In this document: piece after piece, positions 29,498 through 63,159 of the stretch | Layout: every line of letters starts with the position of its first letter | Position numbering within the stretch: position 1 is the first letter of the stretch | Assembly (NCBI GenBank): GCA_030062745.1 | Contig: CP099842.1 | Span: forward strand, 1,736,001-1,800,000 | Length of the DNA: 64,000 bases | Origin: Capitulum mitella | Taxonomy: Eukaryota > Arthropoda > Thecostraca > Pollicipedomorpha > Pollicipedidae | Direction: 5' to 3' | Program-made: the position numbers and the translations under genes | Notes under the pieces: model-generated | Seen by the model: only the letters and a program-made list of their open reading frames with translations | Database searches by the model: none | Told to the model about the DNA's origin: nothing

Positions 29498-29662
29498 TCA
29501 CACCTCGCCCTGGTTGTCGTAGGCGTTGTACTTGACCCAGTCGCGGGCGATCGGCGCCGACAGCATCTCCTCCGGGATGCCGAACGCGTCCACCAGCTGC
29601 AGCGTGTGCGGGCCCAGCTGGGAGCACAGCTCGGCAGCGGCTGCGCCCACGCCGGCGCCCAC
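29498..29662 (-). CDS. Acox: Acyl-CoA oxidase exon 10 (last)
   Basis: Acceptor GCGTGCGGCAG, phase 0, 54 codons plus TGA at 29500-29498. VGAGVGAAAAELCSQLGPHT, then LQLVDAFGIPEEMLSAPIAR and DWVKYNAYDNQGEV. The LVDAF motif is the family's (ALVDAFDF). No SKL or similar tripeptide closes the protein. Confidence 0.95.
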   Translation of the reverse strand: MGAGVGAAAAELCSQLGPHTLQLVDAFGIPEEMLSAPIARDWVKYNAYDNQGEV

Positions 29663-32600
29663 CTGCCGCACGCGCAGGACGGCGGTCACATGACGGACAC
29701 GTGACCGGCGCGGGCCGGGCACGCGGCAGAGGCGCGGTCACACGACAGTACAGACGGCAGCAAACAGTCGACTCCAGGCAGACGACCAGCAGACGGGCGG
29801 TTCGTTAAAACACAACAGAGGGGGAGGGGGGCGGCCAGTTAACATACGGCGGGGTGACAGTCGCATGACAAGCGGCCGGGGGGGGGGTCACCGGGTACGG
29901 AGGTTGCCATTAAGCCGATTACGTGCGACATCTGTGATCGATAAACGGCCGGCAGGCCGGAATGGCACGCGAGTCACGGCTCAGACTGGCGGGACATCCA
30001 CACGGGAGGGGCCGACCAATCACTAAACGGTTCAACAGCAGAGCGCGGGGCGAAGGACCATCACGAGCACGGCGGAGGAACGGGGCACGGAATCAACGGG
30101 GCGGGGCACCAACGGCGGGCGCCGGTGTACCCGCACCCTTTGTTTACGTGACGATCATTCCTGAGATCACGGGGAGCAGACCGATGGAGAATCGGGGCCC
30201 GGGACCGGCGGCGAACACCATGGCCCAAATACACATCTGATGCCGTCGTTTACTGCGCAGAAGTGTGCCCGAAGAGGTCTGTCCCGCACCTCATGAGGTC
30301 AAGAGAGAGCAGGCCGTCGTTCTGGTCTTCCACGCCGCGTCAACACGTCACCCTCCCCGTTGCGCTCCTTCGTGCGGAAAATGCTGGGTAGACGCCATGG
30401 AGTACACCGAGTACAAATACGACGAAGCTGCCAGGTCAGTGGGACTTGGCACCTTGCATGGGCAGACGCCTTACATAATTCATAAGGGTGGTGTCTCGGT
30501 ATCCATCGATAACTCACAGCATCAACCTGTTGCCCCATCACGGCCTGGTGACTGCATCGACACCGCTGCACGGCAAATCCAAGAGCCTCGCCCCGCAACC
30601 CGCGCGAGGAACAATCGGAACGACGCGGAGTCGTCACTGCGCCCGGGAGAAACACGGCGGTCGAAAGCCGGGCAGCTGCGCAGAAACGCCGCCCAGCCGG
30701 CGCAGCCGTTTCGAAACGCAACCCGCCCCGGTGAAAACGGCAGCTCGCACTCGGCAGAGCGCCGTGACGCAACGACGGTGTCGCAACGGCAGGTGGTCCG
30801 GCATCCCGTGCCGCCGGCACGTGACACGGGCGCATCAACAAATCACCGGCAGCGGCGCCGGCCCGACGGACCATTGTGAAAGGCAACACGGCGCCCCCGC
30901 CGCCGGGGCCGGGGCCGGGGAGGCGCGAACCCGTCGCGGCCAGGGCATCGGCCGCCGCTGGGCCACTGCGTAGATGGCCGGCGCGGGATAGATGGCCGGT
31001 CACCCTGAAGCGGATCTGCGCAGCCGCCCCCGCGGCCGGCCCGCAGCTCCCGCAGCCTTCCCCGCCTCGGCGGGGTGACAGAACGGGGTCTAAAGCCGGC
31101 GCCCGGATAGCAACACGGAGGATACAAACCAACGTGGAAGAACGGTCATGTCTCGCACATACCGACGCGACCACTGCGATGGATGCAAGCTGTTCGATTA
31201 CTCTGAGGTAACGGCACCGCAGTGCGAATCTCCGTCATCACCACCCATACGCCCAGTTGACTGGCCAACCACCACTTGTTTTCCTCGCCGCCTCCGGGGC
31301 ACGAAAAACATTCCGTGTTTTTGTGAGCGCCGAATGCGGGGCGAACGGCTCCGTTTGCGCTGTCTGGTGCCGCACAAAAACGTAACAGCTGAGTCGCTGG
31401 GTGGCGGTGAAGCGTTTTTCCAATCGATCGCCACAAGCTGCCCCTAAAAACAGCCGGCCACGGGTTGCTTCTGAAAAGAACCAGACCTTTTGACCTGTGG
31501 TACCCTTTCACCGACGGCCTTCTGTTTAGCAGCTCGCCCGCTCCGTTGAATGCCGTTTGCAGCCGTTCTGGCGACTTTTTTCATCGGCCTGTTGAGAACC
31601 TCGTTCGCGGGAAAAAAAGCGATGGTCCTGTCATCCTTTTGGACAGGACTTTGGTCACGTCGACTGGCAGACAACGTAACGGGGAAGAGAACAAAGGGCC
31701 CGTGCACCGAGCTAGCTGCTGAACTGCAGGTCCACTGGCCACTGCTATGTGAAACCATTACAAAAACCGGCCTCAGTTCGCGGTGCCAAAATCGGACCGA
31801 CAGCGCCGGCCAAAACTTCGTCACGCGATGATGCTGTCATACCGTTTCGTTTAGAGCTGCAGGCTGCAGGCTGTGCCAGCAAATAGAACGGTCGCTACAA
31901 CGCTGCCAAAGTTGCGAAATGAAGTTCCCACAGCGTGACAAATCTGGGCACTTTCTGAATGTCCGAAAGACAGACTAAACATCCGACTTCCGCCTCTGCG
32001 ACATCCAACATTCGCGTAGCTAATGTGGAGCCTGAGATAAACAAACAGAGGAAGGCCCTGCACCCACCGCTTGATAATTCTTGAGCCAGTGAGGGATGCC
32101 CCGAGGCGGCTTCAAAAGCAGGGTGAAACACACCCCGTCCACCCTTTCCCTAAATCTCCGGCCGGGAACACTTCTGTGACGAGATGTGCGACTGTCACCG
32201 CTTCACCTCCCAGACACCGCACTCGGCGATCCCGACCCGTCCACAGGCCAGGTCGGCGGCAGCCGACTCGCCTTGGGGTGCAGCAGTCCGGTGGTGACCA
32301 GGTGGCCCAGATTGGCCTCGACCACGGACAGCAGGTGCAGGTGGTACAGCTGCTGCAGCACGGGCGCCAGCTCCGGGTCCGCCTTCTCGGCGATCACCTG
32401 CGCGAACCGCTCCGACACCAGCCGGTCGGCGTACGAGCGCGCGGCGGCCTGCACCAGGTCACTCTCGCGCAGCATCCAGGCGTCGAACAGACCCTTCTTT
32501 CCGGCCTGTAACAGCGGGGACAACGGGTCACTCTCGCGCAGCATCCAGGCGTTGAACAGACCCCTCTTTCCGGCCTGTAACAGCGGGGACACCGCGTCAC

Positions 32601-63000: not shown

Positions 63001-63159
63001 GCCGTGCTGAGTCGGTCGGCTGAGCAGCTCCGACAGCTGGCCACCCTGTACGGCCGGCTCAGCAGCCACTTGGTCTACCTGGACCGCACCATCCAGGCCA
63101 TCTGCGAGGCCTGGGAGACCGTGCTCGTCGAGATGGACTCCAAGATGGAGCGCTTCCAG
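59989..63159 (+). CDS. ANAPC4: Anaphase-promoting complex subunit 4 (APC4), N-terminal part, six exons, continues past the window
   Basis: APC4 is a scaffold subunit of the APC/C ubiquitin ligase that drives mitotic exit. Exons are 59989-60097, 60433-60561, 60988-61106, 61501-61660, 62034-62213 and 62906-63159, 317 residues so far against about 808 in human. The opening YEKQLPAEVNSMVWSPKMDL is almost the human GEKQLPQEIIFLVWSPKRDL. Later HRVWSVDPPE...CWRPDGRVLA matches HRVWSFPP...AWRPDGKLLA of the WD40 propeller. Exon 4 has FLPPLPSLSKQYGSVNKHSE (human LLPKLPTLPKNYSNTSKIFS), and exon 6 ends AICEAWETVLVEMDSKMERF (human MCEAWEEILMQMDSRLTKF). All junction phases agree. Exon 1 lies in AT-rich DNA and the others in GC-rich DNA. 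Three acceptors sit in tandem arrays. Confidence 0.93.
60433..60561 (+). CDS. ANAPC4: APC4 exon 2
   Basis: Acceptor GGCGTCTGCAG, then ALYRMTLHRVWSVDPPEEGV and SALCWRPDGRVLAVAYTS. It ends TCAG|GTGGGC in phase 1. It holds a WD40 blade with the WRPDG turn. Confidence 0.93.
60870..60987 (+). repeat. 59-bp tandem array of the intron 2 / exon 3 junction of APC4
   Basis: Registers at 60870, 60929 and 60988 (the real exon) repeat the first 20 or so exon bases (GTCTGCTGTCGTACCTGGAC) together with about 36 intron bases ending CATGCCGTCAG. The middle copy has an intact acceptor but meets TGA 11 codons in; the outer copy has lost CAG. Confidence 0.88.
60988..61106 (+). CDS. ANAPC4: APC4 exon 3
   Basis: GT completes Gly, then LLSYLDLESGESVHSETFPA and VAVCLSWAQLQEAQSAEQK|GTGAGC, phase 0. 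It matches the human propeller segment DVEKPGSLHSFSVEAPVSCM-HW. Confidence 0.9.
61501..61660 (+). CDS. ANAPC4: APC4 exon 4
   Basis: Acceptor CGGCTTTCAG. The acidic start TEGEEDWFDDEEDFLPPLPS leads to SLTVLAVG|GTAAGA, phase 1. The acidic run is longer than in human. Confidence 0.92.
61890..62033 (+). repeat. 46-52-bp tandem array of the intron 4 / exon 5 junction of APC4
   Basis: Three extra copies start at 61890, 61936 and 61988, before the real exon start at 62034. Each has the acceptor (CTGTCCAG, TGGCCAG, CGTCCAG) and about 20 exon bases (GTACCCGGGACGGAGAGGTG). The 52-base spacing comes from a poly-C expansion. A 46-base step would shift the frame if an upstream acceptor were used. Confidence 0.9.
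62034..62213 (+). CDS. ANAPC4: APC4 exon 5
   Basis: GT completes Gly, then TRDGEVTLLLHGLLVFGRHG and AMAFSPDLAQLMVLCAEPAE, ending GCCGCCG|GTAAGG in phase 1. It matches human GFIELYAYGMFKIARVTGIA. The Glu/Pro repeats near its end are low complexity. Confidence 0.9.
62712..62970 (+). repeat. 62-63-bp tandem array of the intron 5 / exon 6 junction of APC4
   Basis: Partial copies near 62,712, 62,765 and 62,811 repeat CCGTGCTGAGCCGGTCTGTT and a TCAGCAG acceptor. Fuller copies have GACGAGG at 62846, 62908 and 62971 followed by TTCGGCTGCTGGAGCTGGAC. Steps are 62 then 63 bases. From the first of these the frame hits TGA; from the second it is open through the third. Confidence 0.9.
62906..63159 (+). 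CDS. ANAPC4: APC4 exon 6 (start uncertain)
   Basis: Acceptor GTTATCAG at 62905 is in phase with exon 5 and gives DEVRLLELDLAVLSWSVRYQ, then a second DEVRLLELDLAVLSRSAEQL: a 21-residue in-frame duplication not expected in the family. Use of the weak AG in CAGGGAG within the next copy would remove the duplicate and also keep the frame. It ends CGCTTCCAG|GTCAGC, phase 0. Later exons lie outside the window. Confidence 0.8.

Follow-up and report, generated by a model that had tools for sequence, protein, structure and literature searches.

Six splice junctions in two genes of Capitulum mitella, those for acyl-CoA oxidase (ACOX) and APC4, each lie within their own tandem array, with units of 31–69 bp as determined by Tandem Repeats Finder (TRF). 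The genes are located in a window of 64,000 nucleotides (C4:1736001-1800000) of a 477-Mb assembly with 16 contigs. An initial annotation of the window had claimed that each of the six junctions is embedded in its own array, and the claim is borne out by the gene models and by TRF rows that contain junctions 43715, 37801 and 32505 of ACOX and 60988, 62034 and 62972 of APC4. These arrays are probably ordinary minisatellites of G+C-rich exon flanks, which include the exon–intron border incidentally and have been filtered by selection on the exon. The exons of the two genes are as follows.

45170-45025, 44459-44219, 43820-43715, 40995-40832, 40363-40127, minus strand: ACOX exons 1-5 (gene 29497..45170)
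38976-38803, 37801-37574, 33203-33060, 32505-32272, 29662-29497, minus strand: ACOX exons 6-10 (same gene)
59989-60097, 60433-60561, 60988-61106, 61501-61660, 62034-62213, 62972-63159, plus strand: APC4 exons 1-6 (gene continues past the window end)

The 10 coding exons of ACOX were rebuilt exon by exon through splicing and translation, and the protein aligns to solved acyl-CoA oxidases in PDB with a best E of 1.7e-61, its C-terminal part having been compared separately. The protein encoded by the six APC4 exons matches human APC4 (E 1.7e-36), and the ANAPC4 domain has been found in the stretch L063. The introns of both genes are of the GT-AG type with one exception, the GC-AG intron after ACOX exon 9, whose donor lies at 32271 on the minus strand (CCCAAG/GCGAGT). 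Alignments with homologs reveal no insertion in our proteins at the ACOX exon 3/4 junction and at the three array-borne junctions of APC4, with one gap nearby in our protein at the APC4 exon 2/3 junction. At the ACOX exon 6/7 junction, the reference protein is longer in the aligned stretch. Because only a weakly matching part of human ACOX1 (i-Evalue 0.018) spans the ACOX exon 8/9 junction without a gap, ACOX exon 9 is less certain. The APC4 exon 6 acceptor (CAGGGAG/AC) has been placed by reading phase. These two acceptors and the one-sided exon edges described below are placed less certainly than the other junctions. The initial annotation also held that the real junction is the array member beside the exon. 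This copy gives the best fit to the homologous proteins, and judged from genomic sequence it is presumably the one used in splicing. Since an exon-adjacent junction is what protein conservation demands, no special mechanism is needed to account for it.

The junction arrays and two arrays that touch no junction are arranged as follows.

43381-43738, minus strand: 31-bp array of 11.4 copies at the ACOX exon 3 donor (TRF; last exon base 43715)
37800-38429, minus strand: 58-bp array of 10.6 copies, inside a row of 116-bp period at 37791-38545, at the ACOX exon 7 acceptor (TRF; first exon base 37801)
32457-32637, minus strand: 69-bp array of 2.6 copies at the ACOX exon 9 acceptor (TRF; first exon base 32505)
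60874-61010, plus strand: 59-bp array of 2.3 copies at the APC4 exon 3 acceptor (TRF; first exon base 60988)
61874-62055, plus strand: 46-bp array of 3.8 copies at the APC4 exon 5 acceptor (TRF; first exon base 62034)
62719-63017, plus strand: 48- and 62-bp arrays at the APC4 exon 6 acceptor (first exon base 62972, placed by phase)
62811-63017, plus strand: the 62-bp row of 3.3 copies among the APC4 exon 6 arrays (TRF)
36917-37299: 40-bp array within an ACOX intron, touching no junction, a counter-example (TRF)
35809-35896: 44-bp array of two copies within an ACOX intron, touching no junction, a second counter-example (TRF)

The units are short and stand head to tail with mismatches and indels, as expected of minisatellites. 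In the acceptor arrays, a unit consists of the intron end, the AG and the first 11–49 exon bases. The unit at the ACOX exon 3 donor joins some 24 bp of exon to 7 bp of intron and is repeated ten times into the intron, with GT in nine of the ten intronic copies and GC in one. The ACOX exon 7 array also contains longer variants (67- and 116-bp rows) and has AG in all 12 of its intronic copies; it reaches 11 bp into the exon through the 116-bp row and only 2 bp through the 58-bp row. In the ACOX exon 9 array, the acceptor of the next copy is open and in frame and would add 23 residues, and that of the following copy, at a distance of 137 bp, does not preserve the frame. The six arrays overlap their exons by 11–49 bp, always by less than one unit, and the same limit holds for all 11 junction arrays when five found elsewhere in the genome are included. 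Elsewhere in ACOX, about 160 AG dinucleotides follow one another at 39769-40087, some 40 bp off the end of exon 5.

An artefact, in which the assembler collapsed or expanded copies, is extremely improbable. The copies within the arrays are 0.59–1.00 identical to the exon copy, whereas a duplicate made by an assembler would be near identical, and the same anatomy is seen at unrelated loci. A dispersed or mobile family of arrays was rejected by a DNA search of the genome with three of the six window arrays. The ACOX exon 7 array and the APC4 exon 6 array (62811-63017) match only themselves, and the ACOX exon 3 array has a single weak match of 74% on contig C12; because the search skips very common words, absence of a match is not proof. 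The C12 match is a 32-bp array at L067:181-382, and its likeness is read as chance because it is a separate array on a contig without a match to the ACOX protein. A core motif common to the array units was also rejected: among 44 arrays the top 7-mer occurs in 5, against a control maximum that averages 4.4 and has a 95th percentile of 6.

Independent exons were obtained by Pfam searches of the same genome with four unrelated families (PF00118, PF00171, PF00063 and PF00225). The analysed sample comprises 32 gene stretches (169 kb), namely 10 chaperonin regions, 11 of about 29 kinesin regions by our own grouping, 8 myosin regions and 3 aldehyde dehydrogenase regions; two single-hit chaperonin places, further aldehyde dehydrogenase and myosin regions listed, and adaptin exons were left out. 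Introns were placed from neighbouring hits and splice-site scores. Among 109 neighbouring exon-hit pairs, 81 have close hidden Markov model (HMM) positions (absolute gap at most 13), and 65 of these passed the filter of splice score and absence of stops. Together with three of the five introns from L066, these give 68 introns with both ends placed. A further 129 one-sided edges, each placed from one hit combined with its splice score, are less sure. Junction-spanning arrays are present at 5 of the 265 independent exon edges.

L034: chaperonin acceptor array with a 55-bp unit and 10 further copies, the distant ones diverged; nine further AG copies
L039: chaperonin donor array with a 35-bp unit and 14 further copies
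L038: chaperonin donor array with a 43-bp unit
L047: kinesin donor array with a 38-bp unit
L056: myosin donor array with a 79-bp unit

Two-copy junction duplicates that have no TRF row (at L035 and L054 and, in weaker form, at L033 and L034) stand outside this count. Also outside the counts are nine more edges in L063, from provisional models of APC4 exons 7-8 and of a gene for a ubiquitin-activating enzyme (E1); none of them falls within an array of period 20 or more. The E1 gene lies beside APC4 on the minus strand at L063:3356-7841, with a 64-bp array just upstream at about L063:8053-8660. Two further arrays were seen near exon ends: a 54-bp array of 21 copies at L039:5244-6346 begins 5 bp past the last exon base and so abuts the donor without including exon bases, and a 59-bp array at L065:7455-7621, whose unit holds GTGAGC, adjoins a coding-like frame at L065:7261-7500 and may be another donor array.

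In the window, 6 of 14 introns carry a junction array, which agrees with the share of 6 in about 14 given by the initial annotation, or 6 of 29 junctions when the APC4 exon 6 donor is counted. The window rate of 6/29 far exceeds that of the independent exon edges (5 of 265; Fisher P = 2e-4), so that the window genes are outliers and their rate is not transferable. That six such junctions fall in two neighbouring genes is taken to reflect either an extreme draw picked by the scan or a local excess. Of the eight arrays with a period of 24–200 in the 14 window introns, six span a junction versus 1.4 expected (P = 1e-4) under a null that places arrays uniformly in introns and permits one unit of overhang into the exon, and 1.68 are expected when the null is weighted by G+C (P = 3e-4); as the finding was picked for its junction arrays, neither P value is an independent test. 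In the 68 independent introns, 3 of 11 such arrays span a junction versus 1.53 expected uniformly (P = 0.19) and 1.90 with G+C weighting (P = 0.29). Thus, of the genome-wide tendency suggested by the initial annotation, the recurrence of junction arrays in unrelated genes stands, but a tendency is not established; arrays may favour exon ends roughly two-fold.

The location and composition of the arrays are consistent with minisatellites of G+C-rich exon flanks. None of the 28 arrays with a period of 24–200 in the 169 kb lies inside an exon hit. Local 40-mer duplicates (score at least 16) are found at none of the 140 exon midpoints, at 4 of the 130 junctions of the independent genes, at 6 of the 28 in the window and at 23 of 264 intron points, the intron control points being drawn from both gene sets, window included. 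Going from intron to exon, the coverage by duplications declines, and the junction itself shows no peak. The G+C content of the arrays is 0.588 versus 0.519 for the noncoding background, with a roughly 4-fold preference for the richest over the poorest bins, and that of introns is 0.63 in the 40 bp next to exons but 0.48 at 140–300 bp, whether or not arrays are removed. In the 68 independent introns, the edges of six arrays, spanning arrays included, lie no more than 25 bp from a junction, versus 2.60 expected (P = 0.025, with the 25-bp limit set post hoc); weighting by G+C raises the expectation to 3.25 (P = 0.07). The excess of arrays near junctions is therefore due in part to composition.

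Tandem duplication of segments of about 30–80 bp, followed by expansion through replication slippage or unequal exchange, would occur mostly in G+C-rich DNA. Because the exon-adjacent intron is the most G+C-rich part of introns, arrays would arise often near exon ends. A duplication lying wholly within an exon would change the protein and be eliminated. A duplication straddling a junction would be tolerated because splicing at the exon-adjacent copy restores the old mRNA, and the remaining copies would become intron, drift and decay.

Several observations weigh against an origin from composition and exon selection. Weighting by G+C removes only part of the excess of near edges and does not explain why six of eight window arrays span a junction. 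The array coverage of independent introns within 80 bp of exons is about twice that of the uniform null (P 0.01–0.05; 0.01–0.03 at 20–79 bp and 0.047 at 0–19 bp). The G+C gradient is not simple, because intron G+C is back at 0.55 at 300–600 bp from exons (38 windows). Furthermore, arrays in fully placed independent introns number only 11, so that power is low. The window excess and the doubled coverage, together with the recurrence at independent edges, would fit a different explanation, in which true hotspots exist at splice junctions or at exon ends, either because duplications start there, for example at R-loops, paused polymerase or nicks, or because spanning arrays are preferentially retained; exon ends would then seed arrays that extend into introns. 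Likeness to the exon copy falls with distance in four of six arrays (L038 -1.0, L034 -0.82, ACOX exon 7 -0.65, APC4 exon 5 -0.5), as such seeding would predict, but not in ACOX exon 3 (-0.05) or L039 (+0.28). Given also the lack of a peak at the junction and the non-significant excess of spanning arrays in independent introns, true hotspots appear unlikely. A more specific version also appears unlikely: G+C-rich borders in this lineage would undergo duplication at roughly double the background rate, the constrained exon copy would serve as a fixed template, arrays would grow outward, and many genes would gain ladders of competing near-identical splice sites, with splicing at the exon-proximal site.

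The initial annotation further suggested that the arrays could supply spare splice sites, new introns or new exon sequence, a suggestion that finds no support in the behaviour of the copies. In the spare copies of the 11 arrays, the splice dinucleotide is kept in 52 of 61 cases versus 46.8 expected if it fared like an average dinucleotide of its unit (P = 0.28). For the wider splice core, 353 of 397 positions are kept versus 345 expected (P = 0.32); the test is rough, as the copies are related to each other. Taken together, the spare sites are neither retained nor eliminated beyond what is seen for other bases. The retention of the dinucleotide in nearly all intronic copies at ACOX exons 3 and 7, the open and in-frame spare acceptor at ACOX exon 9 and precedents in potato (PMC4974935, intron gain) and human (PMC2812944, boundary repeats with alternative splicing) could suggest that spare sites act as alternative donors or acceptors, as decoys that tune splicing or as raw material for new exons or introns. 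However, splice bases change like the other bases of the unit, GC replaces GT in both intronic copies of the myosin array (L056), and two of the three spare donors of the L038 array are lost. Only the unit of ACOX exon 9 has a length divisible by 3, so that 10 of the 11 units would shift the frame, and in-frame protein repeats were rejected as an explanation for this reason. A functional role of the spare sites is thus very improbable.

The birth of introns by duplication would leave the two ends of an intron alike. The mean likeness score of the ends of 82 introns is 5.3 versus 5.1 for shuffled partners, and the best score among the 14 window introns, 7.5, equals the control maximum. Three single introns exceed this maximum, their two ends matching each other better than in every shuffled pair: L038 4336-5193, L051 4035-5022 and L039 3111-3328, with scores of 11, 9 and 8, respectively. 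These three would favour a role of duplication in making introns, but a general signal is missing from the end likeness of the 82 introns, and intron birth was rejected as a general explanation.

Related arrays and duplications have been reported in other organisms. In human genes within segmental duplications, TRF detected variable minisatellites (average 30 bp, 4 repeats) at exon–intron boundaries (PMC2812944). The human and present arrays, six in the window and five elsewhere, have in common that they overlap the boundary. The human repeats vary between recent paralogs and are accompanied by transcript evidence for altered introns, whereas the present arrays lie in conserved, mutually unlike genes and are known from genomic DNA alone. 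In a potato RNA-dependent RNA polymerase (RdRp) gene, a tandem duplication crossing an intron–exon boundary made a new intron (PMC4974935). The duplicated segment consists of the intron end, the 3' splice site and the exon start, as in the acceptor arrays described here; a single duplication gave a new intron in potato, whereas 1–14 extra copies are found here with no sign of a new intron. In Drosophila, intron gain through tandem duplication of an AG/GY proto-splice site (PMC2891723) likewise yields extra splice signals, but such duplications start within coding exons, whereas the present units straddle the borders of introns longer than the unit. In C. elegans, the intronic minisatellite CeRep25B is found near alternative exons (PMC4039745) and thus also occupies exon-flanking introns; it is a shared repeat family tied to alternative splicing, whereas the units here are specific to each array and include the splice site. 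The present arrays belong to the boundary-minisatellite kind, to which they add conserved genes bearing ladders of many near-identical splice-site copies. Literature searches turned up only related cases, and those aimed at this exact phenomenon gave no result, which is not proof that it is unpublished.

Even if the arrays are neutral, such loci are natural experiments in splice-site choice, as the exon-adjacent site is accompanied by nine further GT at ACOX exon 3 and nine further AG in L034. If transcripts always use the exon-proximal copy, this would bear on exon definition and on proximity rules. Should the modest preference for exon ends prove general across the genome, it would outline a way in which introns gain length from their ends. 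If exon ends do seed arrays, introns would have a separate way to grow, and the arrays would naturally test the spliceosome's choice among identical sites.

Several other features were noted in the window. Degenerate repeats of about 20 bp (GGGCCCCTGAGACCGC-like) were seen by eye between ACOX and APC4 at 48600-49200, 50400-51000 and 58500-59500, with TRF pieces at 50466 and 58551. Scans of the window for tRNA and with Rfam gave no match, and Pfam assigned no family to two long open frames at 148-1095 and 5167-6303. A 21-bp array of 10.9 copies at 14155-14382 is open in frame, encoding GPQLTAE repeats, and its codon use is coding-like. An exon of a cyclin-like gene lies on the plus strand at 26403-27005 (Cyclin_N, E 5.8e-9).

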